Shown here one piece after another: positions 3,215-23,970 of a stretch of 24,702 nucleotides of DNA. Position numbers and translations under genes: made by a program. Below the pieces are notes generated by a model that was not told the DNA's origin, did not search any database, and was given only the letters and a program-made list of their open reading frames with translations. How positions within the stretch are numbered: the first letter of the stretch is position 1; the number at the start of each line of letters is the position of its first letter. Location: the IMG/VR virus record IMGVR_UViG_3300021963_000624, positions 1 through 24,702 of that record; one strand, 5' to 3'. Source of the DNA: a virus.

Positions 3215-4831
3215 TTAAGCGGTTAAGGCAGCGCAGTCAGCATCTGACAAAGCCGTTGGGAAGTACAAAAGTTGATTGACCTTTAGCCCTTCTTGGTCAT
3301 TATTGTAAATATATCCATCGGCAAAGGTTCCAAGTCCAGTTGCTGGAATTGACAGAAACAGCTGACCGTTGCGGTAATATTTGGCGGTTGTCCCGTCATA
3401 TTTTATAAGCAGTTTATGTACTGTATTAGGTGCTAATGCCGTCCCGAAAGTTTGTGTCCCGCCACCAACGTTGTATATGGCAATAAATCCATTGTAAAAC
3501 GAAAAGTAGTTTCCGCTAAATTGGTTTACTCCCACGAGCAAATCAAAAAAATCAGAGTCCGCTTCAGTGTAGCTACCCTCAAAAAATAAGGTAAAGCTCG
3601 TGTTGTTCACAAGTGCCGAAAAGTTCAAAGCGCCCTCCGCACCCCTTGTCACCGCTGCTCCCAATGTGGGGATGTACGAGGTGGCGTAGGCTCCTGCTTC
3701 AAGTTGGCAGCCCCATACATAAATACCGCTACCTATTGTTCCAGTATACGCATAAGCGCTCGTTGATGTTTTAGATGGATTAACAAAAACACCAGTATTT
3801 AATGCCACAAAAGTATATGTGCATCTGTACCATCCATTTCCATAATTGGTTATGGTGGCTCCGACCCCATCTGTTGAAACAACCGTTCCAGCATTTAAGT
3901 CAAAAATGGCACCAGACTTATCGTAAGCGTGTAATTGCCCGTAATTATATTCTGCCTTTTTCATAAAGGCCGACCAAGTATATGTAATTCCAGCAGTCGC
4001 TAAAGGCCCAGAGCTAATTAAATGATTGGCTGAAGTATTTGTTGAGTCTTGTAATTTATCTGCGTTATTATATCCATCTGGAGAAACTGTTGAATTTGCA
4101 TTAACTGTTAAACTATTCTTGCTCCAAACCGCATTGTCAAACTGCTCGGAGTAGGTTGCCAAGTTCGTGCGCTGCGGCTCAAGCAACAGGCGAGGACAAG
4201 TACTATTCAAGTAGTCCAAACGGGGTAACCCACTAACAGGGCCAACGCTTACTGCTGCGCTGGTGGTGGCGATGTAGTCTGTTGCGATGTCGCCATACTC
4301 AAGCTGGGCGTGCCAAATCAACACATCACGAGCCGTTACGCCTCCGTAGGTATTGAGCTGAATTGATGTAGTGCTGCTTGATTGGTATTTTGTCAAGCGC
4401 TGCCAAGTGCCATCAAGAGTAAATGAAGACTCTGCCGAACCGACTCCGAATTGAATTGTTTCTCCAGCCGTTCCTTTGATATACAAAGAACCAGTTACTA
4501 CGCTTGCCGAAATAAGTTGATATAGCGTTTTATCACCAGCTGAAAAAACTGCACGACTTGCAGTCTGCGTTCCGTCTGGAGCGGTACCATAGTTAGCCGT
4601 AATGGTGCAACCATCTTTTACCCAAGCTGCATTAGTAAAAGTATTTGAGTACAAAGCAAGATTTGTCCGCACCTTCTCAATAAGGCCATTACTTGCCACA
4701 CGGCTGGCCGTATCGTTGCTGCGGGTGAACGTAAGGTCGCCCGTGCCATCGGTAGGCTTGACCGAATATACCTTGCTTGTCTTGTAACCGCTTGGAATCA
4801 TTACCAAGCTCGCATCATCAAAATAGCTCAT
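3215..4831 (-). CDS. Fibre-like protein: two carbohydrate-binding-like repeats and LamG-like end
   Basis: The 538-residue protein begins with a short attachment-type region (MSYFDDASLVMIPSGYKTSK) and a TFTRSNDTASRV segment. Two related jelly-roll-like units follow. The first starts near residue 55 (RTNLALYSNTFTNAAWVKDG) and the second near 221 (RTNLATYSEQFDNAVWSKN). Each has an APDG/SPDG motif and ends with a WHAQLEYG or WGCQLEAG segment before an ATDYI/ATSYI motif. The last 140 residues look like a LamG/concanavalin-type lectin fold ending in LPTALSD-like FPTALSDADC. Such architecture suits a receptor-binding fibre that recognises surface glycans. Parts of the repeats are visibly more AT-rich than the rest. 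No chaperone or pectate-lyase-like helix is seen. Confidence 0.8.
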   Translation of the reverse strand: MSYFDDASLVMIPSGYKTSKVYSVKPTDGTGDLTFTRSNDTASRVASNGLIEKVRTNLALYSNTFTNAAWVKDGCTITANYGTAPDGTQTASRAVFSAGDKTLYQLISASVVTGSLYIKGTAGETIQFGVGSAESSFTLDGTWQRLTKYQSSSTTSIQLNTYGGVTARDVLIWHAQLEYGDIATDYIATTSAAVSVGPVSGLPRLDYLNSTCPRLLLEPQRTNLATYSEQFDNAVWSKNSLTVNANSTVSPDGYNNADKLQDSTNTSANHLISSGPLATAGITYTWSAFMKKAEYNYGQLHAYDKSGAIFDLNAGTVVSTDGVGATITNYGNGWYRCTYTFVALNTGVFVNPSKTSTSAYAYTGTIGSGIYVWGCQLEAGAYATSYIPTLGAAVTRGAEGALNFSALVNNTSFTLFFEGSYTEADSDFFDLLVGVNQFSGNYFSFYNGFIAIYNVGGGTQTFGTALAPNTVHKLLIKYDGTTAKYYRNGQLFLSIPATGLGTFADGYIYNNDQEGLKVNQLLYFPTALSDADCAALTA

Positions 4832-4833
4832 AG

Positions 4834-5376
4834 TTATTTGTAAATTTTTTGAAGTTTCAGAATGTTATGCTTTGGCTCGTTTAGCATCTGCCGAATGTAT
4901 GAATGCGAATAGCTGAAGTCAGCCATCACCTCTTTTGAGTTATTATAGGTTTTATCATTTGCTCCGCAGTAGACATTGTAGCGAGTCATTGATTCGCTCA
5001 TCTTCTGCTTTGTTTCGTTAGATACAATTTTGTTTCTAAGCTTTTGTTTCGTCTCTTCTGACCTTTTTGAACCAGTATTTTTAGCAACCATCTTTTTGAT
5101 TCCCTCTGCGCCCATATGACCGCCAAGTGCGGCATTCTTCATATTGTAGGATTTCTCATCTGCTGCTGCATCAAGAGTTAAAAGTACCAACTCCTCAACT
5201 TCTTGATAATCGTTGCCCACGTACAAGATTTCACGCTCAAATTCGTGTGGTCGCTTTTTATACGCTCTACGGAATAGAACACCGCTGCCGATATACTTGC
5301 TATCGGTAGAGCCTTTGTGACTTCCAACGTAGTATTTGCCATTGGAGTTATCGTGCCATCGGTAAACGAAACCCAT
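4834..5376 (-). CDS. GIY-YIG homing endonuclease
   Basis: The 180-residue protein has an N-terminal GIY-YIG nuclease domain in variant form: FVY (residues 3-5) and YVG (16-18), then SGVLFRRAYKKR supplying the conserved Arg, a Glu in the EVEELVLL helix and the asparagine in SYN. The C-terminal half is basic and contains two NUMOD3-like DNA-binding repeats (SKRSEETKQKLRNK and SNETKQKMSES), then a helix-turn-helix-like NSKEVMADFSYSHSYIRQ segment. This is the layout of free-standing phage homing endonucleases of the Seg type. It lies between the two-module protein and the fibre gene, starts with a TAATG overlap and is more AT-rich than its neighbours, which points to recent insertion. It appears intact. 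Confidence 0.88.
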   Translation of the reverse strand: MGFVYRWHDNSNGKYYVGSHKGSTDSKYIGSGVLFRRAYKKRPHEFEREILYVGNDYQEVEELVLLTLDAAADEKSYNMKNAALGGHMGAEGIKKMVAKNTGSKRSEETKQKLRNKIVSNETKQKMSESMTRYNVYCGANDKTYNNSKEVMADFSYSHSYIRQMLNEPKHNILKLQKIYK

Positions 5377-5696
5377 TAGTTCAAAATAAATAGTTGGTCA
5401 ATTAGGCATTCTTCGCCCTCAAGTGTTGCTCCGTCATCAGTCATTCGCTGAATGTAGGTATCAAAAATGTCGTAGTAGGTGTCCTCACCCAAGTCCTGAA
5501 TCGCAGCAACCAAGCAATCGTAGCCCTCTACAACGCCACCATCCGTTTCAACACGGGTGACAAATTGGTCTACAATCTCATTAGCAGGAGCAAAGCAAGG
5601 AGGTGCTGACTCGTTCTGAATAGACAAGGTGGTCTCATCGGCTTGGCCAAACCAAGTCGAGCAGTATACAACTCCCCATCCGATTAGATTACTCAC
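5376..5696 (-). CDS. Small virion-type protein built of two DGG-E-C modules
   Basis: The 106-residue product starts at GTG 5696-5694, which shares GTGA with the stop of the 23-codon gene upstream. The first 40 residues contain GWGVVYCSTWFG, a start I associate with small structural proteins of these phages. The rest is two copies of one module: residues 44-69 (FVTRVETDGGVVEGYDCL..AIQDL) and 80-104 (YIQRMTDDGATLEGEECL..LFIL). The same module occurs once in the proteins at 8296-8793 and 16705-17976. Function is unknown; membership in the head-tail or fibre part of the late operon suggests a virion adaptor or decoration protein. Confidence 0.75.
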   Translation of the reverse strand: MSNLIGWGVVYCSTWFGQADETTLSIQNESAPPCFAPANEIVDQFVTRVETDGGVVEGYDCLVAAIQDLGEDTYYDIFDTYIQRMTDDGATLEGEECLIDQLFILN

Positions 5697-5764
5697 TTCT
5701 TTTTCTTCTTACTTAAAAACACCTTGAGCTTCTGCACATTGGTATTCTTTACGTTATACTTCAT
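5693..5764 (-). CDS. 23-codon Lys-rich microgene
   Basis: ATG at 5764-5762 overlaps the stop of the connector gene as ATGA, and TGA at 5695-5693 overlaps the GTG start of the next gene as GTGA. The peptide is MKYNVKNTNVQKLKVFLSKK followed by three more Lys, with 9 Lys in 23 residues and no acidic residue. It fills the only gap between these two genes. It might be a real basic peptide or a coupling frame that carries ribosomes from one gene to the next. No homologue is known to me. Confidence 0.5.
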   Translation of the reverse strand: MKYNVKNTNVQKLKVFLSKKKKK

Positions 5765-6261
5765 AGGTACCATCCGTGAAATGATTGTCCGTCTGTTGGG
5801 TACATCTCGCCATTCTGGTTGGCGTAGTATTCGGGGGTGAGGCTGCCGTAGAACGTAAGGTAGCTGACCAAACGCCTGCCGTAGTGTTCTGCTGTATCTC
5901 GCTCCTTTTGGATGAGGTACTCCAGCTCGCTCTTGTCGATGCCTTCCGAGTTCTCGCTCTGCTTCTTGAATACGCCCCCATTGCTCAGCTTGTAAGCAAG
6001 AAACGGCATAAGCTCCACCATCGTGTAGTGAACCAATACGTCCTGAACGTACTCCGTCATGAGCGTGAGGTAGTTGCCCGTGAGCGTATTCGCCAAGACA
6101 TCGTTCTTGAGCTTGTCGTATAGGGCGGTGCCCAGAAGTGCTTGGATGTGGATGTCCTGTGCGGTCTTAATAAACTGCACCATCTGGTCACGGTCTACGT
6201 TGCCAGAGATACCCGTGCGCTTCACGATGTCATCAGGTGAGATAAAAAGGGCGTATGCCAT
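5761..6261 (-). CDS. Head-tail connector, DUF6712-like
   Basis: The 166-residue protein opens MAYALFISPDDIVKRTGISG and has the helical signature QFIKTAQDIHIQALLGTALYDKL (about 29-51), followed by helices with YVQDVLVHYTMVELMPFLAYK and an end in YYANQNGEMYP. This pattern matches DUF6712-type proteins, which take the head-tail connector (gp6-like adaptor) position next to the portal in Bacteroidota phages. It directly follows the portal gene, with a 32-base gap. The start at 6261 has the leader TTATTAGGTATG, seen at two other structural genes. Family identity is from memory of the pattern; the adaptor role is inferred from context. Confidence 0.78.
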   Translation of the reverse strand: MAYALFISPDDIVKRTGISGNVDRDQMVQFIKTAQDIHIQALLGTALYDKLKNDVLANTLTGNYLTLMTEYVQDVLVHYTMVELMPFLAYKLSNGGVFKKQSENSEGIDKSELEYLIQKERDTAEHYGRRLVSYLTFYGSLTPEYYANQNGEMYPTDGQSFHGWYL

Positions 6262-6293
6262 ACCTAATAAACCTCAGGAGTCAGATGTTGCGA

Positions 6294-8306
6294 CTATTTG
6301 GGAATGCCGTGTTCACGGGCATACTCAGCCGTGTAGCCTTGATAGTCCGACTCGATGGGAGCAATCGCTACCTCCTTAGCGTTCTTGGGTAGCTTGAAGC
6401 CCTGACGTACCGCCTCATTCACGTTGATGATGTCGGTGCCGTTAAGCGTTCCGCCTCCCCATATCTTGCCGTCTTTCGTTAGCTTCTTGCGGTATACCCT
6501 GCGCTCCCAGCGATGGTAGCAGTTAGCACCACCCTTGTAGAGCCATACGCTATACGGCTTGCCTTGCGCCTCTGCGCCTCCGTTAGAGCTTAGCTGCTCG
6601 ATGTCCTCCTTGCGGTAGACACGGGCTGCGTTCATCAGCGTAGAGCATAGCACACGGCTTGAGCCGTTGGGACTTCTGCGGGTGCCGATAGCGTAGAAGT
6701 AGCGCACCTTGTAACGCTCCGTGTCCTGCTCGCTCTTGTCTTGAGCAGCAAGCTCGATGCGTGAGTTGAGGTATGCCTCTACATCGTACTCGGCCTCCTC
6801 ATCATCGACAAGCTCAGCATCGACCATCTCAAAGTCCTTGAGGATGTCCTCCTCGCTCTCTCCAATCTCTTGGAGCTTGGCTACCAATTCAGCAGCAAGC
6901 TCCTCCTTCAGAAAAGGGCGGCTATCCCCGCCTCCCTTCTGCGACTTCATCTGCGTGATTACCGCTGATGAGTTACCTGCGAACAGAGCCTGTGCAACAT
7001 TCGGGTCGAACTGAAGCATCTGAACGAGGAAGGTGATGGCTTGGTCTTGCGTGAGGACTCCCTCTTGTACGGCACGCATAATATCCAACGAGCTTGCAAT
7101 CTGCGGTCCGTTGTACGATGCCTCCTTCTGGATGAGTTCCTCTTGAGCCTGCGGGTCTACCTGTGCATCTACAATGACCTCCGTACCTACGGCATCACCT
7201 ACTTCCTTCACGTCAGCGAACTCGGCAGGAGTCAAGGTCTTAAAGTACAGGTCAAGGTTCACCTTGTTGTAGGCAAGCAGTTGGTCGATTCCCTTTGCAA
7301 TCTCCTCTTGCTTGGGGCGGATAACCACATTGTCGAGCAGGTTGTATGCGTTCTTAATCTCATCGGCATTGTTACCCAGTCCCGTGTTGTCCTTGATACC
7401 AAAGAGCATCGGTGAGGTGATGCGGTGAGCCACCAGAATCTTGCTCGTTGATTCCTTCGACAGGAACTCGTACTGAAGGTGGGCCTCCGACAGGGTAACA
7501 GGCTCAATCGTTGCGGCCTTCTGGCTATCATCGTTGAACGCCAAGATGTACTTGCCTGCGTTGTTGGTTCCGCTCCACTTCTGCTTGATGGCAAAGTCGA
7601 TGTTATCCTGCTCCTCCTGCGGTGGGATGCCGTTGTTAAAGTTGATAATCATTGACGGAGCAAGTCCGTTCTTGATGTTGTTGATGTGGTAGTTCGCAAT
7701 CTCCTCCTCGAGCTCTGCGTAAGGCAGGCCGCCTTGATAGTCGACAGGCGAGTAGTAGTACGAGCCGCTGCGGTATGGGCGTATGTAGAGGATTTCTACC
7801 TTCTCGCCTGCTGCTCCGTAACCGAACGCAGGAATGCGCTCCGCTTGGCTCTTGTTACGCACCTTGCTCCAGTCATAGGCGTAGTAGTACGCTTCAATCT
7901 CACCCTCCTCGTTGCACTTCTCAGCACGCAATGTCTCCACAGGCATATGGTATACCTCCGCAATCTTGCTCTTGTCAGCCGTGTAGATGACTTGGAATGC
8001 TGCGTTACCGAGCATATAGAAGTCATTGACTACCCGCTTGAGTTGCTCAGGCTGGATGAGTCGCTTCAGCTCCATATACCCCGCAGGATTGTCAGCAGCA
8101 TTCGCAGCATCAACGCCCTTACCGTAAATCATATCAACGATTCCCGTGATGACTGCGTTGTTGGTGGGGCTTCCGTTATAGCGGTCGATGAGGTACTCAA
8201 AGAAGTTATTGTCATCGCCATACTCCACCCAGCTCAGGCGAGGGTTCTCGCTGATTTGTGGCGTGGTGTACGAAGCCAGATTGATGAGGCGAATGTTACT
8301 CTCCAT
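6294..8306 (-). CDS. Portal protein with long C-terminal extension
   Basis: The 670-residue protein resembles PBSX-type portals, which form the dodecameric DNA channel at one capsid vertex. Typical parts are an N-terminal INLASYTTPQISENPRLSWV, NNAVITGIVDMIYGKG, the DFYMLGNAAFQVIYTAD segment, the SAP-like NHIN-type NYHINNIKNGLAPSMIINF, and the stem region SKILVAHRITSPMLFGIKDN. Most portals of this type end at 400-500 residues. Here an acidic linker (about 485-525) leads to an extra domain (about 535-670) with SRVLCSTLMNAARVYRKEDI, VWLYKGGANCYHRWERR and a C-terminal GYTAEYAREHGIPK. I recall a similar block at the end of portal or minor head proteins in related phages; its job is unknown. The start overlaps the upstream gene by 11 bases. 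Confidence 0.87.
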   Translation of the reverse strand: MESNIRLINLASYTTPQISENPRLSWVEYGDDNNFFEYLIDRYNGSPTNNAVITGIVDMIYGKGVDAANAADNPAGYMELKRLIQPEQLKRVVNDFYMLGNAAFQVIYTADKSKIAEVYHMPVETLRAEKCNEEGEIEAYYYAYDWSKVRNKSQAERIPAFGYGAAGEKVEILYIRPYRSGSYYYSPVDYQGGLPYAELEEEIANYHINNIKNGLAPSMIINFNNGIPPQEEQDNIDFAIKQKWSGTNNAGKYILAFNDDSQKAATIEPVTLSEAHLQYEFLSKESTSKILVAHRITSPMLFGIKDNTGLGNNADEIKNAYNLLDNVVIRPKQEEIAKGIDQLLAYNKVNLDLYFKTLTPAEFADVKEVGDAVGTEVIVDAQVDPQAQEELIQKEASYNGPQIASSLDIMRAVQEGVLTQDQAITFLVQMLQFDPNVAQALFAGNSSAVITQMKSQKGGGDSRPFLKEELAAELVAKLQEIGESEEDILKDFEMVDAELVDDEEAEYDVEAYLNSRIELAAQDKSEQDTERYKVRYFYAIGTRRSPNGSSRVLCSTLMNAARVYRKEDIEQLSSNGGAEAQGKPYSVWLYKGGANCYHRWERRVYRKKLTKDGKIWGGGTLNGTDIINVNEAVRQGFKLPKNAKEVAIAPIESDYQGYTAEYAREHGIPK

Positions 8307-8793
8307 AAATTACAAAGTCATTATTCATTGTGCGCTCTGTCGTTTGCAGCACGGGTTGGTAGGTTCCAATGTTTTGACCGCTGGGCAGCATATAAATCTT
8401 GTCGATAGCCAAGACCTTTGAATCGTTTGCTCCCAGTTCGGTGAGTTCATTGGTTACGCAAGATAGTGATTCTATCGTTCCTGCATCCGCAATAACTCGG
8501 TCTTCGTACTCGTTTGCGACTCCTGCTGCGTAGCGTTGGTCTTCAAGGCGCAGGATATACGGCACCTCTTGGTCGAGGTTTGCGCTATTGTATTCAAACG
8601 TCAGCTCTCGTGTGTCCTCATCGAACGATGGGTCAACGAGCGTGTAGGTGATGATTTCCCGTGTGTCCTTGTTGATGAACTTGGCCTGAATACGCCAATA
8701 GTCTCCGTAGTTTGTGCGGTCATCGTTGCCGTACTTCCAGTCACGGATGGGCAAAGTGATGTCCTGTTGGGCATTATATGATAGGAAAATCAT
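8296..8793 (-). CDS. Structural protein with one DGG-E-C-type module, 165 residues
   Basis: I choose the ATG at 8793-8791, preceded by TTATTTAGGTATG, over an upstream in-frame ATG at 8814. The protein starts MIFLSYNAQQDITLPIRDWK and is rich in strands (YWRIQAKFINKDTREIITY). Residues 96-120 (YEDRVIADAGTIESLSCV..ELTEL) are one copy of the short module also found in the proteins at 5376-5696 and 16705-17976. It lies just before the portal gene and overlaps it by 11 bases. A virion role is likely from context; no named family is recognised. It is the first gene after a cluster of terminator hairpins, so it may need its own promoter or readthrough. Confidence 0.72.
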   Translation of the reverse strand: MIFLSYNAQQDITLPIRDWKYGNDDRTNYGDYWRIQAKFINKDTREIITYTLVDPSFDEDTRELTFEYNSANLDQEVPYILRLEDQRYAAGVANEYEDRVIADAGTIESLSCVTNELTELGANDSKVLAIDKIYMLPSGQNIGTYQPVLQTTERTMNNDFVIYGE

Positions 8794-8834
8794 ACCTAAA
8801 TAACCCCAACTCATAACAAAGTGGTGAATGAGTC

Positions 8835-8861
8835 AAAAAGAAAAGGGGGCCGAAGCCCCCT
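8835..8861 (-). terminator. Intrinsic terminator with TTCG loop (distal copy)
   Basis: Minus-strand GGGGGC-TTCG-GCCCCC forms a very stable stem closed by a C(UUCG)G tetraloop, with an extra A-T pair, followed by TTTTCTTTTT. It is a textbook intrinsic terminator for minus-strand transcripts and the second of two similar copies after the tube-like gene. Confidence 0.85.
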
Positions 8862-8911
8862 AATCCAAACTAAAAAATGATGTTGGCTACAACAACACAA
8901 TGCAAATATAC

Positions 8912-8937
8912 AAAAGAAAAGAGGGCCGAAGCCCTCT
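8912..8937 (-). terminator. Intrinsic terminator with TTCG loop (proximal copy)
   Basis: Minus-strand GAGGGC-TTCG-GCCCTC with a flanking A-T pair is followed by TTTTCTTTT. It lies 55 bases past the stop of the tube-like gene and is the first terminator met by transcription. Stem, loop and tail closely match the copy 76 bases further on, suggesting duplication. Confidence 0.83.
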
Positions 8938-8991
8938 CATCCATCCTAAATACACCCCGTTCCGCTCAACGGGATGATGCGAATATACGAA

Positions 8992-9543
8992 TTAACCTCG
9001 TACAATCGTGGGCTTCGTTCCAGAAAGTCCAGCAAACGGGTTGTTTGCAACGGCTCCTTTGAGGAAGTTAGCAGGCGTACGCTCTTGGCCCGTGAGGGTT
9101 ACGTTGTATCCCGTCAGGTCTCCCATAGCAGAACCCGTAACGATAGAGCCTCCAGTTACCTCTGAGCCGTGCTCCAAGCCCATTACCCAAGAGTTGCCGT
9201 TGTTGTCTTCTACGACTACAATCGGTTTAGCCCAAGAGAGGAGCTTGATTTGCTTCGTGGTCTCGGCATCTTGCTTCTTGAGTACGATGTTCAACACCTG
9301 CTCGAAGAAGGTCGTGCCGTTATCACGGCTTGAGTTGATAGCCTGCTCGAAGTTTGAAGTGCCCTTCAGTTCGTAGGCGTATGCTGATACCGCTGCCGTA
9401 GCAAGCTGGCTGATGACATCCGTGTTGGCGGTGTCGTAGGCTACGCTGGCGAGGTCAAGCGAGTTAATGAAGTAAACGTAGTTGAGTCCGCCTACTTGGT
9501 CTTTACAAGGCTCAATGCGGCCTAAGGTGAGTGTACAAGCCAT
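8992..9543 (-). CDS. Virion protein, possible major tail tube
   Basis: The 183-residue protein starts MACTLTLGRIEPCKDQVGGL and consists mostly of strands. The end of the chain (about 115-165) reads VVVEDNNGNSWVMGLEHGSE, then AMGDLTGYNVTLTGQERTPA, a pattern I associate with tail-tube-type or capsid-associated proteins in Bacteroidota phages. It lies immediately after the major capsid gene and is framed by strong terminators on both sides, which suggests a high, separately set expression level as expected for an abundant virion protein. The leader is AATAAAAACAA-ATG. Real gene with high confidence; tube function is moderate, and a capsid decoration protein is the main alternative. Confidence 0.7.
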   Translation of the reverse strand: MACTLTLGRIEPCKDQVGGLNYVYFINSLDLASVAYDTANTDVISQLATAAVSAYAYELKGTSNFEQAINSSRDNGTTFFEQVLNIVLKKQDAETTKQIKLLSWAKPIVVVEDNNGNSWVMGLEHGSEVTGGSIVTGSAMGDLTGYNVTLTGQERTPANFLKGAVANNPFAGLSGTKPTIVRG

Positions 9544-9560
9544 TTGTTTTTATTAGAATT

Positions 9561-9596
9561 AAAAAAGGAGGGCGAGGGCAATGCCCAAGCCCCCCT
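9561..9596 (-). terminator. Intrinsic terminator after capsid gene
   Basis: Minus-strand AGGGGGGC pairs with GCCCTCCT (one G-U pair), with an inner GGGC/GCCC stem and ATT loop, followed by TTTTTT. It lies 20 bases past the capsid stop and 18 bases before the start of the next gene. It probably reduces transcription between the two. Confidence 0.8.
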
Positions 9597-9615
9597 AATT
9601 AGTTAATGCAGTTGA

Positions 9616-10548
9616 TTAGGCGTAGTAAACCACGTCAGCACCGAAGCCAACCTGAACACCAGCCGTAAAGCGCATAATGAAACGTACGTTCTTAGAGCCA
9701 TCGAGGTCAGCCATATCCAGAACCTTAACCTCTTGATGGTCAGAAAGAAGACCAGTTCCGAAGTACAAGTTTGACTTCTGAGCCAATACCATCTTGTTGC
9801 TTCCCAAGCCAGGAGCGTGGAATACGCTCACGCCATCAAAGGTCAGGTCTTGGTTAGCGTACCAAAGGTTACCCTTGCTCTCAACACCCGCAGCACCCAA
9901 GCCAGAGGCTCCGAAGCCACCAAGAGCACGGATGTAAGCCTTGAATACGTTGGTAGAAACGTAGAGCTTCAAGTCATCCTTGCCGTATACTGCGTTAGGA
10001 GCAGCATCCATAACCTTACCCATCTCCGTGATGACGTTTGAAGACGTAATACCACCCGTAGCGGCAGTCACATCGATAACGGTGGTGTCGGCAGCAAGAA
10101 GGGTTTGGAAACCGTTGAACTCACCAGCGTTGCCAGTAGAGCCAGTCCAAATCTTTTGCTCAACCCACTCAGCTACTTTAGCAGCGTTGTAGCCGATGAA
10201 GTAGTCAACGAATGACGTAGGCAGTTGGTCGAATGCAGAGTAACCCATTTGGATAGCCTCCCAGTCAGATTCGAAGTCGCTCTTGCAAAGCTCCAAGTTT
10301 ACCTGAAGGAACTCAGGCTGGAGGATGGCTTCCGTCATCGTCAAGGTTGACGTATCGGTGAAGTCACACGTTTGGTCTTTAACGATGTCGTTCAAGGCAA
10401 CCTTCTTCAGGACTTCCTTGTACTTGACATTCGGCTTAACGGTGATACCGCCCTTAGCGATGGTGTCACCAGACAAGAGGGCTGCAGAAATGTATTTTCC
10501 TGCAAACTCACCTGCGTAAGTAGTAGTGATTGAAGTAGTCGTAGGCAT
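9616..10548 (-). CDS. Major capsid protein, HK97-like
   Basis: The 310-residue protein forms the icosahedral shell. It has no long N-terminal delta domain, in line with a separate scaffold-like gene upstream. Recognisable parts are an N-terminal arm (MPTTTSITTTYAGEFAGKYI), a region rich in charged strands up to LQVNLELCKSDFESDWEAIQ, the helix YFIGYNAAKVAEWVEQKIWTG, a glycine/threonine-rich loop with DVTAATGGITSSNV, the helix-strand unit of the A-domain (DLKLYVSTNVFKAYIRALGG) and the C-terminal strands with NVRFIMRFTAGVQVGFGADV. Context (protease, scaffold-like protein, then this gene, then a terminator) supports the call. The A-rich leader ends GCCAAA-ATG. Confidence 0.85.
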   Translation of the reverse strand: MPTTTSITTTYAGEFAGKYISAALLSGDTIAKGGITVKPNVKYKEVLKKVALNDIVKDQTCDFTDTSTLTMTEAILQPEFLQVNLELCKSDFESDWEAIQMGYSAFDQLPTSFVDYFIGYNAAKVAEWVEQKIWTGSTGNAGEFNGFQTLLAADTTVIDVTAATGGITSSNVITEMGKVMDAAPNAVYGKDDLKLYVSTNVFKAYIRALGGFGASGLGAAGVESKGNLWYANQDLTFDGVSVFHAPGLGSNKMVLAQKSNLYFGTGLLSDHQEVKVLDMADLDGSKNVRFIMRFTAGVQVGFGADVVYYA

Positions 10549-10564
10549 TTTGGCTTACAATTAT

Positions 10565-11134
10565 TTATTGGAACAATTTAGAAAACACTCGGTCTTTAGT
10601 ATTTGCAACACGCTCTGCACCGATGTGAAACTTCAGCTCGTGTTTCTTTTCTACGGGAGCGGCAACGATGGGCTTTTGAGCAGCCATTGCAACCTCAACC
10701 TCAGCGGGTTCTTCAGCAGCTACGACTTCTTCAGCCATCTCTTGCTTCTTACCCATCTCTTGCTTCATCATCTCGACTTCTTCACGGAGGGCAGATACCA
10801 TCTCCACGAGGTCTTTGATAGTCAATTCGGGAGCCACTTCTTCAGCAGCCTCTACCTCAATCTCAATGGCGGCCTCTTCTTCAGCGGCAGCCTCTTTGAT
10901 TTCCTTGATGATGCCTTCCTCCTCGATAACGAGAATACGGCCATCTTCAAGTTTATGCTCGCCAACAGGTGCAGCGACTTTCTCGCCATCACCTCCAACG
11001 AGGAATACGTTAGCACCTGCCTCAAACACTTCGGCCTCGACCATAGTGCCATCAGCAAGCGACATAGAAGCCAGCTCTACCTTCTCAGGAGTTAGAGCCA
11101 GTTCGATTTTCTTGAATACGTCTTGCAGATTCAT
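10565..11134 (-). CDS. Scaffold-like protein
   Basis: I start at ATG 11134-11132 after TTTTTTAGGTATG, giving 189 residues; an upstream ATG at 11191 is in frame but lacks such a leader and overlaps the miniprotein gene. The protein has a folded-looking N-terminus (MNLQDVFKKIELALTPEKVE, then DGTMVEAEVFEAGANVFLVG), a very acidic Glu/Ala-rich middle, a coiled-coil segment (about 105-135, EMVSALREEVEMMKQEMGKK) and a basic C-terminus with RVANTKDRVFSKLF. Acidic coiled-coil proteins with a basic tail encoded between prohead protease and major capsid are usually scaffolding proteins. The basic end would bind capsid subunits. Function inferred from composition and position. Confidence 0.75.
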   Translation of the reverse strand: MNLQDVFKKIELALTPEKVELASMSLADGTMVEAEVFEAGANVFLVGGDGEKVAAPVGEHKLEDGRILVIEEEGIIKEIKEAAAEEEAAIEIEVEAAEEVAPELTIKDLVEMVSALREEVEMMKQEMGKKQEMAEEVVAAEEPAEVEVAMAAQKPIVAAPVEKKHELKFHIGAERVANTKDRVFSKLFQ

Positions 11135-11168
11135 ACCTAAAAAATTGTTATTAGTTAAATTGGGTATT

Positions 11169-11327
11169 TTACTCCTGAGCTTTTCCGCCAATGAATCCTA
11201 TGCCTTGTGCTTGCATATCGTTCTTGTCGCAACATCTACGGGAGTAAGTTTTACCATCAGGGCATAGGCAGCCTCTGGTGGAGTTCTGTGGTACGGGTGG
11301 TTTAGGCCCTTGATTGAAACCCTTCAT
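11169..11327 (-). CDS. 52-residue Cys-rich miniprotein
   Basis: The frame starts at ATG 11327-11325, overlapping the protease stop as ATGA, and ends at TAA 11171-11169. After a proline-rich start (MKGFNQGPKPPVPQNS) it contains GCLCPDGKTYSRRCCD, then NDMQAQGIGFIGG. The C-x-C ... CC cluster followed by QAQGIG is a pattern I recall from short segments in Bacteroidota phage proteins. It could bind a metal ion. It lies between the protease and scaffold-like genes, so a head-assembly role is plausible but unproven. Confidence 0.65.
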   Translation of the reverse strand: MKGFNQGPKPPVPQNSTRGCLCPDGKTYSRRCCDKNDMQAQGIGFIGGKAQE

Positions 11328-12286
11328 ATTTTACCGAGTTCTTTAAGTTTAGATTCTGCCCAACGCTTCCCAGCAAGGCCTCCCCAGAGGAGGTAGCTGA
11401 TGGTGCCGCAGGCTTGGGTATCGTTCTCATCGTAGTATTCTTCGGCTCTTGATAGGTACGAATACATCCGAGTGATGGTCTCTACCGACAAGGGCTTGCC
11501 CTGTGCGAGCTGCTGCGCTCGTATCTTACCGACAGGCGTAGCGCACTTGTTGCCGTTCTTCTCGTTCAGGTCGATGCCTCGCTGGGCGTTGTTACTCACC
11601 GCATCGGGGTAGTCGGCATACGACTCCATCTCAAGACGCTTGCCGCTTTTTCTGCGCTTGTCTTCTTTGATGATTGCCTTCGCCATACCCATGACATACT
11701 GCTCTACGATATGCTCGGCCTCTGCCATCTCGATTTGAGCAAGGGCATCTTGCAGGTCTTCAGCACGCATCTTCTCACGCTGGGCGAACCATCCCTCAAT
11801 CGAGAAGCCTTTGACCTTACCCTCTTTGACGTACTCTGTCCAGATGGCTTCGTTGTTCACCTTCATCATCACGACCCAAGTACCAACGGGGTAGTCAAGG
11901 CCGTAGGCACGGCTCTTGTCGTTGTTCTCATCCTCGATAATCCAGCTCTCTACTACGCTCAGTCCGTTAAGTTCCTCTGCGTGTTCGAGTGTTGCGTTGT
12001 TCTGATTGCCCTTAATCATATACAACTCAGCCGCCTTGCGGATGGTGTCCTGAGAAAAGTACACATAGTACTCCTCACCCGTCTTGTCATCGTATCGGTA
12101 GATGGGCTTGTTGGGTACGAGTGCTGCTCCGATTAGGATGCGCTTGTCCTCGTTCTGTACCTTGAACTGGATTTGCTGCTTCGAGAGCGCAATGAACTGC
12201 TCCTCGATGGCGGGGCTTTCAACGATGCTGATGGCATCTACGCCCATCAGTTTGTCATCTTCAAGAATTAGCTCGTAGATTTTCAT
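11324..12286 (-). CDS. XkdF-like prohead protease with C-terminal domain
   Basis: The 320-residue protein begins MKIYELILEDDKLMGVDAIS and IVESPAIEEQFIAL, the usual start of XkdF-type capsid maturation proteases. The likely catalytic His is H102 (NATLEHAEELNGLSVVESW) and the likely Ser is S162 (VKGFSIEGWF), as in this serine protease family. After a charged helical linker, residues about 225-320 form an extra domain: NNAQRGIDLNEKNGNKCATP, VGKIRAQQLAQGKPLSVETI and a Trp-rich end (YLLWGGLAGKRWAESKL). This block also appears fused to phage head proteins elsewhere in my recollection; its job is unknown. The gene overlaps the tape measure stop as ATGA. Role: cleavage of scaffold or capsid precursors. 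Confidence 0.85.
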   Translation of the reverse strand: MKIYELILEDDKLMGVDAISIVESPAIEEQFIALSKQQIQFKVQNEDKRILIGAALVPNKPIYRYDDKTGEEYYVYFSQDTIRKAAELYMIKGNQNNATLEHAEELNGLSVVESWIIEDENNDKSRAYGLDYPVGTWVVMMKVNNEAIWTEYVKEGKVKGFSIEGWFAQREKMRAEDLQDALAQIEMAEAEHIVEQYVMGMAKAIIKEDKRRKSGKRLEMESYADYPDAVSNNAQRGIDLNEKNGNKCATPVGKIRAQQLAQGKPLSVETITRMYSYLSRAEEYYDENDTQACGTISYLLWGGLAGKRWAESKLKELGKI

Positions 12287-14019
12287 CCTCCGATTGTTGC
12301 GCTGGAGCGGATTCTGCGCTCAAGCTGGTTAGCGTTTGTGATGTCTTGGTTTACAACGTAAGCTCGCATCGGTCGACCAAGCAGTCCAGCAAGCTGGTTC
12401 TCGGTGTTGCCGAACTGGATGTTCGGGGTGAGCGGCTGAGCCGTAGCGGTAGAGGTCGGGATAGATGGCTGCGAGGTGCGGGTAGTTCCTGCTCCTCCGC
12501 CTCTTTGGAATTTGGTGGCTGCGATTGCTGCTACCTGTGCGGCACCCGTAGCCGCAACGATTCCAGCCTTCACGAAGTTTGCGCCCGTGAGTGCATCCTG
12601 AGGCACGGCAAGCTGCGACATAATAGCGGCAGCGGTGTTGGCTACGGCTTCACCGATACGCAGGGCTTTGGTGATTTTAAACGTCTTCTCAGCGTTCTTC
12701 TCGTTGCCCTTGCCGAGAGCCTCAGTAAGCTGCGCCAATGCACCGAAGGTTTGACCAGCAAGCTCTACGGATTTGGCAGCCTGCTCAACCTCACGCTGGC
12801 GGTCTTCATCAGCATACTTCTTTTTGATTTGGGCTTTCTTGGCCTCATACGTTGCGGTGGCTGCGGCAGTATCTTGACCCGACTTGATGGCCAAGTCAAG
12901 TAGCTGCATATACTGAGCCTGCGCTGCTTGCAGTTCTTGTGCTTGAGCGGACTGGGCTGAGGCCGTAAACTGAGCGAGCATCTGATTGTAGCCAACGAGA
13001 TTCTGCGCTCGGCTTTTCTTCTCCTCCTCATCTCTCTTTTTACGAATCTCAGCATCCTCAAACGACCATTGTCGTTGGGCATCTATGAACTTTTGTTGCT
13101 CCTCACTTAGCTTCTTTTGGTTGGCTAATGATTCGGCCTCTTGCTGCTTTCGCTCGTTAGCCAACGACTTGAGTTCGTTTTGCAGTTTCTTCTGTCTGCG
13201 TAGCGATTCCGAACGCATCTCATCAACCTTAGCCTCTGCTTCAGCAAGCGCACGCAAGTCCTCATCCGTAGATTCTCCAAGCTTGATGCGCTCTTTGAGG
13301 TACTTGACATACGCTTGTGCGTTAGCTTGCTCGGCTTTTGCTACCTTGTTTTCAAGTGCATCAGCTCTTTTTACCGCTTTGATTCGCTCATCAATGCTTT
13401 TGGTTTGGTCATCTGCAATGATTCGGGCTTTCGTTAATTCCACATTTGTTGCAGCACGGAGCTTGATGAGGTCACGCTCACGGTCTTCGATGTCATCAAG
13501 TTGCTTGGCTAACGCTGCACCTGCTTTGGTTTCTTTTACAATCTCATCACCCAAGCCAGTGAATGCCATTTTTATACCGAGAAGTCCACTCTCAAAATCT
13601 CCACTCAAAAATGTGGCTATTGATTCACCAAGAAAAATAATTCGGTCAATTACTACCTTAACGGCAGCAGATACGCCACCCATAATCTCAGCGAACTTAT
13701 CTGCACCACGAGAGGTCTGGGTGAAGTAGGTGAACAGAGTGCCAAGCGTAACTACCAGCGCACCCAATCCCGTAGCGATGAGCGCACCCTTAACTGTGGT
13801 AAGCGAAGTGATGAAGCTCTTGACTCCACTTACTACTGCCTTGAATCCAGAAGCAGCACCACCCGTAAACTTGTCTACTGCCTCCGTAGCAGAGGACATT
13901 GTGTCGTTCAGGGCATCGGTCTTCTTGTTGGTGTCACCGAGAGCCTTGTTCAGCTCCTCTACGTTGAGCAGGGCCTCACCGTTCTCGACTCTTAGCTTGA
14001 TAACTTTCTCGACCGCCAT
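12283..14019 (-). CDS. Tail tape measure protein
   Basis: The 578-residue protein has an N-terminal helical part, hydrophobic segments at about 65-110 (SFITSLTTVKGALIATGLGALVV broken by short turns) and 125-160, a very long charged coiled coil from about 165 to 420 (many E, K, Q, A), a second apolar region (about 470-515, with GEAVANTAAAIMSQLAVPQD) and a Thr/Pro-rich stretch. It ends YVVNQDITNANQLERRIRSS, an ending I recognise from tape measure proteins of Bacteroidota phages. Tape measures set tail length at about 0.15 nm per residue, which would suggest a tail near 85 nm. It is short for the family. The TAATG-style packing with neighbours and position after large tail genes fit the assignment. 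Confidence 0.85.
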   Translation of the reverse strand: MAVEKVIKLRVENGEALLNVEELNKALGDTNKKTDALNDTMSSATEAVDKFTGGAASGFKAVVSGVKSFITSLTTVKGALIATGLGALVVTLGTLFTYFTQTSRGADKFAEIMGGVSAAVKVVIDRIIFLGESIATFLSGDFESGLLGIKMAFTGLGDEIVKETKAGAALAKQLDDIEDRERDLIKLRAATNVELTKARIIADDQTKSIDERIKAVKRADALENKVAKAEQANAQAYVKYLKERIKLGESTDEDLRALAEAEAKVDEMRSESLRRQKKLQNELKSLANERKQQEAESLANQKKLSEEQQKFIDAQRQWSFEDAEIRKKRDEEEKKSRAQNLVGYNQMLAQFTASAQSAQAQELQAAQAQYMQLLDLAIKSGQDTAAATATYEAKKAQIKKKYADEDRQREVEQAAKSVELAGQTFGALAQLTEALGKGNEKNAEKTFKITKALRIGEAVANTAAAIMSQLAVPQDALTGANFVKAGIVAATGAAQVAAIAATKFQRGGGAGTTRTSQPSIPTSTATAQPLTPNIQFGNTENQLAGLLGRPMRAYVVNQDITNANQLERRIRSSATIGG

Positions 14020-14150
14020 TGCCTCTTAATTTGTTGCTTCGCTTCTTGCCAGCTCTCAATGACTTCCCACTTGCCCTTTGCGATTTCAATCTCCTCGCAT
14101 ATTCCGTAGTGGTCACCCTTTAGGCCAGTAATTAAAGAACCTATATTCAT
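13992..14150 (-). CDS. 52-residue hypothetical tail-block protein
   Basis: I choose ATG 14150-14148, which shares ATGA with the stop of the large structural gene; an upstream in-frame start at 14183 is less likely. The product reads MNIGSLITGLKGDHYGICEE, then IEIAKGKWEVIESWQEAKQQ and a basic end (KRQWRSRKLSS). The WEVIESW segment resembles endings of small phage proteins encoded before tape measures. It overlaps the tape measure start by 28 bases. No function is known. Confidence 0.65.
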   Translation of the reverse strand: MNIGSLITGLKGDHYGICEEIEIAKGKWEVIESWQEAKQQIKRQWRSRKLSS

Positions 14151-16714
14151 AACACCTGTTGTCTTTGAGCTATGATACTCCACGTCTCAGCCACCTGCGT
14201 ACCGCCCGTGTGGGTGAGCTGCAAGTAGGATGCGAATCCGTTAGAGAGTTCAATCGTTAGATGATAGCGGTCTGGGCCTAAGTTGCGAAGCGAATGGATG
14301 GTATCACCTGCTGCTCCACGCACAATAGAATACTCTGCGTGGTACGAATAGGTGTTGCAGGTGTAGATGATTTGAACTACCTGCGTGTCACCCTCCGCCA
14401 TATCGAACAACGGAGTAGCGTAGTTGTGCAGCGGCACGCATCTCACGCTTGCATTCTCAAGGTCGCTTGTTGCTTCGTACCAATACTGCGTGTTAGTGGG
14501 GCGAGTGGTGTGCGTAGTCACGTTGGCGATGGGTGCCTTCTCAAGGCCGACCAATCCCTTTGACTTAGCCGCCACGAATTTACTCGTGCGCCAATAGCAG
14601 TTATTGTCGGTCCACTTGTAGCCGTAGAACTCGCAGCATTGCTGCGTAGCGGCTCCGCTGAAGCTCACCGTGCCGTTGTTATTCAGCGCAGTCACCGTAC
14701 TCGCACAGAGCGATGAGTTCACAAACGAGGCACGGAATAGCTCTACTCGTGCAGTCATCTTATCAGGGTCGTATCCCGTGATTTTGTTGATGCGCCAATA
14801 CTCACCATCGTAGTACACTTGGTCGTTGAGATTGAGCTGGAATAACTCCGAAGGCTCAAGTACAATACCCACCTCCATCATCACCGCATCGCTTGCGTAA
14901 AGCTCAAGCAGGTAGGTGGCGTAAAAGTCCGTGAGTAGGTTGTTGCTTGGCGGCTTGGTGCCTTCCACTTGTGGGATGCCGTATGTTGCGGTGAACGTAC
15001 CACCATAGGTCATATTGAACACGGGGTACTCGTTCTGCGTTTGGAATGTACCATCGGTACTACGGAAGATGTAGTAGTTGGAGGTGCCGTTCAAGCCGTT
15101 GTAGTACAACAAGCGGGGCGGTGAGTCGATAGGTTTGCCCTCAGCATCAAACATCTGAATCACCTCAAAGGTGGTGTTGGAGTTGATGCGGTTGGTGATG
15201 GTAGCAGCAAACGGAGTGTCAATGACAATCTCGCTATCTGCGAACTCGTTGTTCGTGTCATCTACCTCTACGCTTCCGTGCGGTATGCCGAATGCTGAAT
15301 TGTAGGCGTTATCGAGAATCGAGTTGCCGTTAGCCATCAGCATCTTGATGCTCTTGCCTTGCAGCTCGGTGGTAGGCTTAATCGTTATGGGCTGGCTGAT
15401 GTCTACTATCTCATTCCAGTTGCGTACCGCACCATCACCAATCCACTCATCGTAGGCGTATACGTTTAGGCGGTTGGGTATCTCCTTGCTTGGAACGAAT
15501 ACGAGGTTGAACATCTTAGCCAAGCCAGCAACGAAGTCCTTTTGCTTCATCTTAGGCAGGAACATCGATGGGTTCACATCGAACCCTGCTGGGAAGTCAG
15601 GCGCACTAATGACCGTCATCTGGCACGTTGATGCCAGCGTACCTCCCGAATCTATGCCGCCAATACGAAACGACACAAGGTCGCTCGTGGATAGGTTCAT
15701 AAACGAATGCACAAAGTCAATCGAGAACGCACCAAGCGTGATGACATCCTTCGACTGGATAGCCGTGTTGCCCAAGTACATCGTGATTTGGTACATACTA
15801 ACTCCCGTAGGCGATGTGATGCTTCCCTGTACGTTGAACTTGTACTCACCTATGATGGGCAGTTGGTAGCGGTAGGTGCCCGTGTTGAAGTTGTTGCCGT
15901 TATCGTAGACCTCCGTGTTGAATTGGATGATGCTCGGTGTGGTAGCCGTAAGCTCAGGAATCGAGAGCGAGGCACTTGAGTACACCTGCGCCAAGCGGTC
16001 ATTGAATGGTTGCTCCAAAGGCACAAGGCCCTCCTTGTTGTAGCACAACAGGTAAAGGTTCGTGAACTTGGGATTGTCAAAGATGCCTATGTTCGGGTCA
16101 ATCGTGTAGCCTGCCTCTGATAGGATTTGCTGAAATACGATGCTCGCCTTGAAGGTCGGGAAGAAGTCGGTCTCCCACATTGGAGTAAACAACTGCTGCG
16201 GGCTAAATAGCGTATCGCTTGCGAAGACACGGGTATCGACAGGAGCATAGACAATCTCGCCACTAAACAGGCCATCGTTCCAGCTATCGGTGATGGCCTC
16301 GTAGCTGAACGTGTGGGTGTATGAGTCGAAGTCCAGCTCACGCAGCTCCTTCTCGCCTACGTTACGAGCGAAGCGTGCGTTCTCACCAGCGACCAAGATT
16401 TGGTACTGCTTGGGTACGCCTCTGTCCATCGCCACATCAAGCAGCTGGAGGTAGCCGCTTATCATCGTGAGGTCATCCGAGTACAGGGTGACATCCTGCT
16501 TGGCGTATGGGTTAAACCCACCGCTCACGCTCACATCGTAGTAGTGCTTGAAGAACTGATTGTTCACATCCGTAGCGGGTACGGAGAAGCTCTTAGAGAT
16601 GGGGCTGAAGATAACCGCAGGGTCACGCAGGTCAGCAAGGTTGTAGTCGATGCTGATGCTCTCATCTGCGTACAGGTCAAGGTAGCCTGTTGATGTCTGA
16701 AGCGTTAGAGCCAT
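14147..16714 (-). CDS. Large tail structural protein, hub- or distal-tail-like
   Basis: The 855-residue protein starts MALTLQTSTGYLDLYADESI and has an N-terminal unit with DLRDPAVIFSPISKSFSVPA and NNQFFKHYYDV, which I recognise as the typical opening of a large tail protein in Bacteroidota phages. Residues 100-450 contain many strand-rich units, including KMKQKDFVAGLAKMFNLVFV (about 390-410), which resembles the hub or baseplate part of tail tip proteins. Near residue 690 is a Cys cluster, TQQCCEFYGYKWTDNNCYWR, that could bind metal or form disulfides. The C-terminal 140 residues look like a small beta domain. No lysozyme or peptidase motif is seen. Role: tail tip or hub, inferred. Confidence 0.75.
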   Translation of the reverse strand: MALTLQTSTGYLDLYADESISIDYNLADLRDPAVIFSPISKSFSVPATDVNNQFFKHYYDVSVSGGFNPYAKQDVTLYSDDLTMISGYLQLLDVAMDRGVPKQYQILVAGENARFARNVGEKELRELDFDSYTHTFSYEAITDSWNDGLFSGEIVYAPVDTRVFASDTLFSPQQLFTPMWETDFFPTFKASIVFQQILSEAGYTIDPNIGIFDNPKFTNLYLLCYNKEGLVPLEQPFNDRLAQVYSSASLSIPELTATTPSIIQFNTEVYDNGNNFNTGTYRYQLPIIGEYKFNVQGSITSPTGVSMYQITMYLGNTAIQSKDVITLGAFSIDFVHSFMNLSTSDLVSFRIGGIDSGGTLASTCQMTVISAPDFPAGFDVNPSMFLPKMKQKDFVAGLAKMFNLVFVPSKEIPNRLNVYAYDEWIGDGAVRNWNEIVDISQPITIKPTTELQGKSIKMLMANGNSILDNAYNSAFGIPHGSVEVDDTNNEFADSEIVIDTPFAATITNRINSNTTFEVIQMFDAEGKPIDSPPRLLYYNGLNGTSNYYIFRSTDGTFQTQNEYPVFNMTYGGTFTATYGIPQVEGTKPPSNNLLTDFYATYLLELYASDAVMMEVGIVLEPSELFQLNLNDQVYYDGEYWRINKITGYDPDKMTARVELFRASFVNSSLCASTVTALNNNGTVSFSGAATQQCCEFYGYKWTDNNCYWRTSKFVAAKSKGLVGLEKAPIANVTTHTTRPTNTQYWYEATSDLENASVRCVPLHNYATPLFDMAEGDTQVVQIIYTCNTYSYHAEYSIVRGAAGDTIHSLRNLGPDRYHLTIELSNGFASYLQLTHTGGTQVAETWSIIAQRQQVL

Positions 16715-17976
16715 ACTCGGTTTTTGACTTGTGCTGCGTATTCGAAGCTGAAGGTGTACTGCACGAGGTTATCGTTGAGGCTGGTCTTGTATTCTACCTG
16801 AGTGTCTTTCAGGGTAACGTACCGCTCCTCCTCCACCAAATATACGGCATTTGAGAGCAGCATCTCTTTGACCATCTGGTTATATCCATCGTTAAGGAAG
16901 CCCGTGTTGAGTACGATGCTATCCCGTCCGAAGTTGTTGAAGGTCTTGGTCGGTGATGCGGTTGCTGCGTTGTACGTCCAAGTGCTGCTACCAATGGTGC
17001 CCACGTTGGTCTCGTAGGTCTCTTTGCTCGTAGCCGTTGAGGTCGTGCTTTTCTTGAACGCTACGATGTAGTCCCAAGCCCCCCATTTGTTTTGGTAGGC
17101 GATGGTGTATGGCGTGTAGCGTGGCTCACAGGTAGGATAGAAGCGGCAGGTGTACGCATCATCATCCTCGCCAAGCTCACGAAGTTCGTTCTCAACGCAC
17201 GAGAGGCCCTCGCAAGTTCCCCCATCAGCCTCTACCCTGCGAGCATATGCAACGCTCTGGTAGTTGCCCAGCGACAAGTCGTAGTATAACAGATTCGTTA
17301 TATCCTCAGGAGCGGGGTCAAGGACTGAATCGTTGAGGTTAGCAGGGCCAGCAGGCAAGAACCAGAGCTTGTCGGTTGAGTCGGTAGAGTCCACTGCTCC
17401 GAAGTCAGCGATGTCGATGGTGGTGTCTTGACCATCCGAGTATTCGACCCGCATACCATTTACCAGAGCAGGCACGACACCGATGGTCATAGCCTGTCCC
17501 TCTTGGATGTATTGCGTGGTGCTGCCGCTGGTTAATACTCCCGTTGCGGTTGTTGCGTTTACGCCATCCACGAACTCGGTGTAGCCGTCATACGCTTGGA
17601 TGGTGTTGGATGTTGCGCTTACCGAAGCAACACCTCCAGCGGTCGTGTACTCACGGAATTTTACCTGCACGTTGACTACCGTCTGCTCATTGTCGGTAGC
17701 GGTTCCTGCTGCGTGGTCGATGTCGGTCTGCGAGAGGTACGAGCTTACGATGTTGCTCACATCAAAGTAGCCGTACAGGTTGCTCACCGACTCCTTCGGC
17801 TTGATGAGGCGGTAGGCATACTGCGCTGGCACGCTTGCGCTTGAGCCAAACCAGATGAATACATCAGCAACGTACTTGAATCCAGCGTTGCCTGAGTTGT
17901 TTGAGCTTACCGCATAGACCATAGGGCTGCCTGCGAAGGAGCTGGTGGTCGGCTGCTGGTTGATGGTAATTGCCAT
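16705..17976 (-). CDS. Tail structural protein with one DGG-E-C module, 423 residues
   Basis: The protein starts MAITINQQPTTSSFAGSPMV, an opening typical of phage tail proteins of this group, and consists mainly of strands with many Thr, Ser, Val and Tyr. Residues 244-268 (YARRVEADGGTCEGLSCV..ELREL) form one copy of the short module also present in the proteins at 5376-5696 and 8296-8793. A second Cys pair follows (TCRFYPTCEPRY). The C-terminal part, with TVNYK-like VEYKTSLNDNLVQYTFSFEY, looks like a tail tube or distal tail domain. The start overlaps the upstream stop as TAATG, and the end overlaps the large tail gene by 10 bases. Distal-tail function is a guess. Confidence 0.72.
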   Translation of the reverse strand: MAITINQQPTTSSFAGSPMVYAVSSNNSGNAGFKYVADVFIWFGSSASVPAQYAYRLIKPKESVSNLYGYFDVSNIVSSYLSQTDIDHAAGTATDNEQTVVNVQVKFREYTTAGGVASVSATSNTIQAYDGYTEFVDGVNATTATGVLTSGSTTQYIQEGQAMTIGVVPALVNGMRVEYSDGQDTTIDIADFGAVDSTDSTDKLWFLPAGPANLNDSVLDPAPEDITNLLYYDLSLGNYQSVAYARRVEADGGTCEGLSCVENELRELGEDDDAYTCRFYPTCEPRYTPYTIAYQNKWGAWDYIVAFKKSTTSTATSKETYETNVGTIGSSTWTYNAATASPTKTFNNFGRDSIVLNTGFLNDGYNQMVKEMLLSNAVYLVEEERYVTLKDTQVEYKTSLNDNLVQYTFSFEYAAQVKNRVWL

Positions 17977-19235: not shown

Positions 19236-19710
19236 GCAGCGCACCTTGTACAATGTCCATTGTGATGTCCTCGAATGCTGCTCCATCGTGCTTGTCTGGA
19301 TGGTACTTTTCTATCTCGTGCCGACCATACTGCTCCTTTACCACAGGGCGATACAAGATGCCCAGCCACTTGTGGGCGTTCTTGATGGGGTCTTTCATAT
19401 ACTCCTCCAAGTCCACGAACTCACCGAGTGAGATGTCCTCCAGCTTGGGATGGAATCCGTACTTCTTGTCACCGATGGTCACGAACCGCTGGAGCGGTGG
19501 GTTCTCGGTGAACACCCCAGCGATGATGGTCTTGATGTCTTCCAGCTCGCTGACGGGGAACGAGGCCTGCTCATCCTTGTCGATGCCGCAGAAGATAGCA
19601 AGGGCCAAGTCCTCAGCGGTGTCATCGGTAGGGTTAGCACCCATAAACCTTTGGAAGTCCTTGAGCTTGATGTCAGCCCATACGGTTGGGACACTTATTG
19701 TGCGTAGCAT
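19063..19710 (-). CDS. Tail assembly chaperone-like protein
   Basis: The 215-residue protein opens MLRTISVPTVWADIKLKDFQ and has mostly helices: DLALAIFCGIDKDEQASFPV, SELEDIKTIIAGVFTE, then EFVDLEEYMKDPIKNAHKWL and AFEDITMDIVQGALLFFYRL. The end (about 180-215) is low complexity. I recognise the opening and the central DLEEY...N.HKWLGILYRPV block as a conserved tail-block protein of Bacteroidota phages. An overlapping -1 frame carries a second conserved-looking segment, which suggests a G/GT-like frameshift pair as in lambda, where both products chaperone tape measure assembly. The gene overlaps the glycosyltransferase end by 16 bases. The chaperone role is inferred. Confidence 0.72.
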   Translation of the reverse strand: MLRTISVPTVWADIKLKDFQRFMGANPTDDTAEDLALAIFCGIDKDEQASFPVSELEDIKTIIAGVFTENPPLQRFVTIGDKKYGFHPKLEDISLGEFVDLEEYMKDPIKNAHKWLGILYRPVVKEQYGRHEIEKYHPDKHDGAAFEDITMDIVQGALLFFYRLEIGLQMSSLTYLKQVAKQEKSSMQEPPSENDGDGMQSSINSLRGLYKILKR

Positions 19711-23725: not shown

Positions 23726-23970
23726 CACTCGTAGTGTTCTCCTGTATTGCCGTTCTGACCGATGATGTCCATTCGTTTGTTCAACGCATTCTCCATCTTC
23801 TGCCATTCCTCTTGTCGTGCAATCTCTTGTTGCTCCTTGAACCATTGCTGCATAGCCTTGCGGTCAAGGTATCTCACCCACATCTTTGCGGCTACCGCTT
23901 GGCGTTGGGGTTTGAATAGGTAGGTGCTACGAAGACGTGCCATAGCTATCCTCATAAATTGTTCTCTCAT
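23725..23970 (-). CDS. Hypothetical basic helical protein, 81 residues
   Basis: The protein starts MREQFMRIAMARLRSTYLFK and is strongly basic and helical, with two Trp residues (KMWVRYLDRKAMQQWFKEQQ) and a C-terminal coiled-coil-like EEWQKMENALNKRMD. No family recognised. It is joined to both neighbours by overlaps: ATGA with the gene before and TGATG with the glycosyltransferase. A DNA-binding accessory function is conceivable from the charge but nothing more can be said. Confidence 0.72.
   Translation of the reverse strand: MREQFMRIAMARLRSTYLFKPQRQAVAAKMWVRYLDRKAMQQWFKEQQEIARQEEWQKMENALNKRMDIIGQNGNTGEHYE

Follow-up and report, generated by a model that had tools for sequence, protein, structure and literature searches.

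A short module recurring in phage virion proteins as a candidate mount for a head-spike-type fibre

Why would one short sequence module recur four times in three virion proteins of a single phage? We addressed this question in a viral record of 24,702 bases, hereafter the window, which represents a fragment of a tailed phage. Its genes lie on the minus strand in the order terminase, tail genes, protease, capsid, portal, connector, small module protein, fibre and lysis genes. Two copies of the module follow the W/G-rich N-terminus of a small adaptor-like protein of 106 residues (5376..5696, minus strand; 39 relatives aligned). One copy lies in a loop of a 172-residue beta protein encoded upstream of the portal gene (8296..8814, minus strand), which belongs to the family of gp05 of Nonlabens phage P12024S. 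The fourth is in a distal tail (Dit)-like protein (16705..17976, minus strand). The window also encodes a phosphoadenosine phosphosulfate reductase-like protein (22344-23222), a glycosyltransferase (19695-20615) and, judged by eye, a second glycosyltransferase-like protein (23198-23845).

The Dit-like gene is followed by a Tal/hub-like gene (14147..16714, minus strand; phrog_38559), in which the module profile found no module, and by the tape-measure gene, which is the position of a Dit. The protein has an Ig-like N-terminal part, to which the structure-alignment rows were confined. The best Foldseek matches of its low-confidence model were the monocin tail tip and tube, with E values of 1.8e-4 and 9.7e-4, respectively. 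By sequence, a profile of the Dit-like protein had no match in the PDB.

The module and its conserved residues

The pattern [FY]xxR[VM]xxD[GA][GA]xxExxxC[LV]xxx[IL]xxL had exactly four matches in the six-frame translation of the window, all on the minus strand. These were YARRVEADGGTCEGLSCVENELREL in the Dit-like protein (17173-17247), YEDRVIADAGTIESLSCVTNELTEL in the 172-residue protein (8434-8508), and FVTRVETDGGVVEGYDCLVAAIQDL (5490-5564) and YIQRMTDDGATLEGEECLIDQLFIL (5382-5456) as copies 1 and 2 of the 106-residue protein. An earlier note on this DNA had reported four copies, and all four lie where it placed them. The spacing it gave after C-(L/V) is corrected here from four residues to three, the four-residue form having no match. 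Neither the full pattern nor a shorter core matched in 300 residue shuffles.

A module profile, built from relatives with the window left out, picked up all four window copies at 33-45 bits (40.8, 44.8, 32.9 and 42.9 bits, in the order given above). At a threshold of ≥8 bits, the module profile identified 182 domains in 12,495 viral ORFs versus none in reversed ORFs. A refined profile found 367 copies in the fetched loci, again versus none in reversed ORFs. The concern, raised in the earlier note, that a profile might match no better than chance is thus not borne out.

In loci chosen regardless of the module, all 68 distinct copies retained the Glu and the Cys, and the Arg was kept in 63 of 63; the Asp and the first Gly varied. 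The Cys is the residue that had been singled out from the four window copies. A scan that did not require it returned mainly Cys-bearing copies, together with a few Cys-less or shifted forms. In the Cys-less variants, ED..L replaces E...C; they occur in L127, L130 (Dit-like) and L128 (mini).

According to AlphaFold2, each of the three copies that were modelled folds as a helix-turn-helix, with modest to low confidence (pLDDT of the models 50 and 58). The predicted helices span residues 38-51 and 59-70 for copy 1 and 74-87 and 95-104 for copy 2 of the 106-residue protein, and 243-250 and 259-267 for the Dit-like copy. In these modest- to low-confidence models, the DGG..E stretch forms the turn of the hairpin. 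Comparing the folds of the copies had been proposed as a check, and no unrelated folds appeared among these three. The module is accordingly described below as a predicted helix-turn-helix unit of 25-30 residues.

Pfam had no match to the module, nor had NCBIfam in the module proteins of the window. PHROGs contains no dedicated module model, and its matches were through the P12024S gp05 family only. A sequence-profile search of the PDB returned only a meaningless 9-residue match to a mucin, and a text search of the literature found no paper describing the motif. In the isolate collection of cultured phages, close module matches were limited to Nonlabens phages P12024S and P12024L, and tblastn of the 106-residue protein against phage isolates gave no credible match. 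Searched as a degenerate DNA pattern, RVxADGGxxExxxC had at least as many matches in the viral collection as those listed. The same pattern matched only 90 stretches in bacterial and archaeal genomes totalling 257 billion bases. As few of these were real and most were fortuitous or antisense matches within GC-rich sequence, we dismissed the possibility that the module is a common cellular domain. From the Nonlabens host and the few real cellular matches, several of them in flavobacterial genomes, we infer Bacteroidota hosts for the phages carrying the module, which are mostly uncultured.

Linkage to a fibre gene

Stand-alone module ORFs are about 55 residues long, and the small ORFs bearing modules span 45-150 residues. 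The gene that directly follows a stand-alone module ORF encodes a protein starting ..SLVMIPSGYKxGKLYSVxPxDGxGD... In a reverse test, 80 loci were gathered by this fibre N-terminus alone and then scanned for modules. A module ended ≤60 nt upstream of the fibre gene in 72 of the 80 loci and ≤1.2 kb upstream in 77; one of the remaining three has just 45 nt of upstream sequence. As a control, a module was sought upstream of 186 other large ORFs and was found at none.

The gap between adaptor and fibre genes is typically −4 nt (an ATGA overlap) or −1 nt. Seven natural fusions join module and fibre with a spacing of 17 or 23 residues, versus mostly 22-25 in the split genes. Where the module is at the C-terminus of an unrelated longer protein, the fibre gene is mostly next, as in gp09-gp10 of the cultured Nonlabens phage P12024S. 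In the window, a homing endonuclease gene (4834..5376, minus strand; Pfam NUMOD3 with a GIY-YIG remnant, phrog_314) is inserted exactly at the junction of adaptor and fibre. Two relatives, L265 and L278, carry a different endonuclease-like gene encoding about 240 residues at the same junction. In three others, the first fibre gene is immediately followed by another fibre-like gene (MIEQASLVIGEGNWAVKSDSLLGYK or similar; L340 1909-3639, L357 7910-9601 and L347 5225-6985), which has no module ahead of it.

The fibre of the window (3215..4831, minus strand) has the SLVMIPSGYK N-terminus and a GTA head-spike-fibre domain (NF048003, E 6.8e-77). In the PDB, it matched the RcGTA head-spike fibre Rcc01080 (6tb9_F3, E 5.6e-31); weaker matches were to baseplate proteins of other phages. 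The earlier note had stated that nothing nameable explains the module, which no longer holds given that homologues of the RcGTA head-spike apparatus are encoded next to it. On the comparative evidence, the shared partner of the module proteins is likely the receptor-binding, head-spike-type fibre encoded beside the small module protein.

Adaptor N-termini, insertion sites and baseplate copies

In one class of adaptors, the preceding gene encodes a homologue of the RcGTA spike base Rcc01079 (NF048002 to 1e-19; PDB 8cjz_h and 6tb9_E3); the gene stands beside the anchor and fibre genes in L278, L087, L257 and L120. Adaptors that follow a spike base often begin like MIGLGL or MSIGIGIGIS, and the vertex anchor of the RcGTA fibre is IALGLGLGL (PMC7296036). 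Alternating Ile/Leu/Val-Gly runs were present in 23 of 94 adaptor N-termini, versus 6.6 after shuffling. The window has no spike base gene beside its adaptor, the neighbour being a DUF6712 protein (5761..6261, minus strand; PF20459, E 5e-23). Its adaptor starts MSNLIGWGVVYCSTWFG, without an alternating Ile/Leu-Gly anchor peptide, and is of a W/G type. This type comprises 76 of the 77 adaptors located after DUF6712 proteins, and the DUF6712 family precedes most W/G-type adaptors; the Ile/Leu-Gly type comes after small beta proteins. Because the adaptor type tracks the upstream gene, the N-terminal part appears to be paired with that gene, which presumably marks the anchor site, and the module with the fibre.

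Two further groups of small beta proteins that occupy the spike-base slot, A9 and A10, are related to each other and have no detectable relation to Rcc01079; their position suggests that they too may be spike bases. Some adaptor N-termini consist of ten-residue repeats such as IGWGQGAxNN (L045:3059-3307, L224, L267 and similar). A 42-kb viral contig, L353, has a gene recognized by eye as a GroEL-like chaperonin (7635-9224) upstream of its spike-base/adaptor/fibre cluster. An absence of the baseplate module from spike-base phages was considered and set aside as a trend only (P 0.08).

The module was also found in many unrelated larger virion proteins, and a single family can have it at several positions. 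The Dit-like family has three or more insertion sites, the Tal/hub-like family many, and the small beta protein encoded ahead of the portal has two, both in loops. A tail-tube-like family carries the module at its C-terminus, and a head-closure protein and further virion proteins are also carriers. The phage of L065/L336 encodes a Dit-like protein 95% identical to that of the window and a homologue of the 172-residue protein free of the module. Similarly, the hub protein of G049 is without the insertion seen in L263, and the flanks align closely. These clean module-free relatives indicate that the module is an insert, usually at a loop, that has been gained and lost.

In most contigs, a large virion protein bears a module in addition to that of the adaptor. 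Some carry the adaptor module alone, even at 64 and 122 kb, and a second mounting site is therefore not general. Tandem copies occur in adaptors. The idea that the number of adaptor modules equals the number of partner proteins fits the window and is contradicted by G042 and G082, in which one adaptor module is found with two partners.

Among adjacent Dit- and Tal-like genes that were both readable, 22 pairs had the module in Dit only, 15 in Tal only, 7 in neither and none in both, at differing insertion sites; the set was partly chosen by the module and the counts are not independent because the phages are related. Of 15 cases in the set selected through the fibre, 12 had the module in exactly one of the two proteins. 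Adaptor and baseplate modules were more alike within a genome than between genomes (21 pairs; 10 clades, P 0.003). Such likeness is expected if both modules have a common partner to fit, or have to fit one another; duplication or gene conversion could also be its source.

A possible fibre mount and its relation to known systems

With respect to mechanism and ALTERNATIVES, the best reading of these data is a fibre mount, with one module on the adaptor and, in many cases, another on the baseplate. We assign a probability of roughly 0.6 to the module being a docking unit that mounts one fibre at chosen sites of the virion. The small helical hairpin would be the mounting unit for the receptor-binding fibre. 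The small module proteins would serve as adaptors whose N-terminal peptide grips the particle, at the capsid-vertex spike base in some relatives and at a different site in others, and whose C-terminal module contacts the N-terminus of the fibre encoded by the adjacent gene. In Dit, Tal, the 172-residue protein or another virion protein, a module carried as a loop would provide a place for the same fibre on the baseplate or elsewhere. We infer that the module physically binds the fibre, that the fibre is displayed at several sites and that the invariant Cys has a role. More tentatively, the transferable hairpin of about 30 residues may be a universal socket on vertex adaptors, neck proteins, Dit or Tal, which would give one fibre several mounts.

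The earlier note had proposed a docking unit that attaches several virion proteins to one partner. Such a unit, with one shared partner, fits the linkage, the fusions, the Dit/Tal exclusivity and the within-genome likeness; modules might instead pair with each other. If so, a fibre-bound adaptor would clip to the module of Dit, Tal or another protein through a helical bundle, perhaps with Cys-Cys disulfides. We consider such pairing rather unlikely. It would account for the two modules of most contigs, for their co-variation within genomes, for the invariant Cys and for the tandem copies. It is at odds with the adaptor modules that stand alone on several large contigs and with the adaptors after spike-base genes, which seem self-anchored. 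In addition, the Cys-less ED..L variants of L127, L128 and L130 argue against an obligatory disulfide.

It is quite improbable that the module is an adhesion unit of the virion surface, binding host or environment and spreading promiscuously as phage Ig-like domains do. Insertion at several sites in many virion families would agree with this, but the strict position ahead of one gene family and the Dit-or-Tal exclusivity are unexpected for a free decoration, and a classical ligand domain would be larger than the module. Least probable of all is an assembly tag recognized by a chaperone or a modifying enzyme, for example at the Cys, and idle in the finished particle: the invariant Arg, Glu and Cys exceed the needs of a hairpin and the window has two glycosyltransferase-like genes, but an unsystematic look saw no enzyme gene tracking the module, and its in-place fusion with the fibre points to a structural role. 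Both possibilities account less well than a fibre mount for the fibre linkage and the Dit/Tal exclusivity.

If the fibre mount is correct, a very common, unnamed unit of uncultured Bacteroidota phages flags the fibre gene and its attachment points, and receptor-binding genes and their mounts could be read straight from metagenomic phage sequences. The position of the fibre would evolve through one small socket moving between proteins, and a phage could shift or multiply the positions of a single fibre with the fibre gene unchanged.

The module resembles the promiscuous Ig-like domains of phages in being scattered over many virion proteins. An Ig-like domain is a beta sandwich of roughly 90 residues, whereas the module is a predicted hairpin of two helices, some 30 residues long and associated with a single fibre gene; all three modelled copies were predicted to be helix-turn-helix rather than beta sandwich, and Pfam gave no match. 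The nearest existing model, phrog_31097, matches 60 of 106 isolated modules. It represents the P12024S gp05 family, gp05 itself containing a module, and it models the whole 125-residue protein, without an assigned function, rather than the module.

Small re-used units that attach receptor-binding proteins (e.g. PMC6872550) and RcGTA spikes are already known. Neither the papers searched nor Pfam, NCBIfam, PHROGs (as a dedicated model) or the PDB revealed the module itself, its promiscuous spread through virion proteins or its association with a head-spike-type fibre. The receptor-binding protein systems of Klebsiella phages comprise anchor domains, T4gp10-like docking domains and short conserved peptides (PMC6872550), and likewise re-use short standard units to attach receptor-binding proteins to the particle. 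Their peptides, however, are the N-termini of the receptor-binding proteins, whereas the module usually forms a protein of its own and has been inserted in many virion proteins; compared by eye, the two have no apparent sequence relation.

The closer parallel is the RcGTA head spike (Rcc01079 and Rcc01080; PDB 6tb9; PMC7296036). The fibre domain of the window is homologous to Rcc01080, and some relatives have the base homologue followed by an adaptor with an Ile/Leu-Gly start. Unlike in RcGTA, the anchor and the fibre here are usually separate genes and the module is also found in baseplate proteins; the PDB chain of the RcGTA fibre gives no match to the module profile. If the module does mount the fibre, it would connect GTA head spikes with baseplate appendages.
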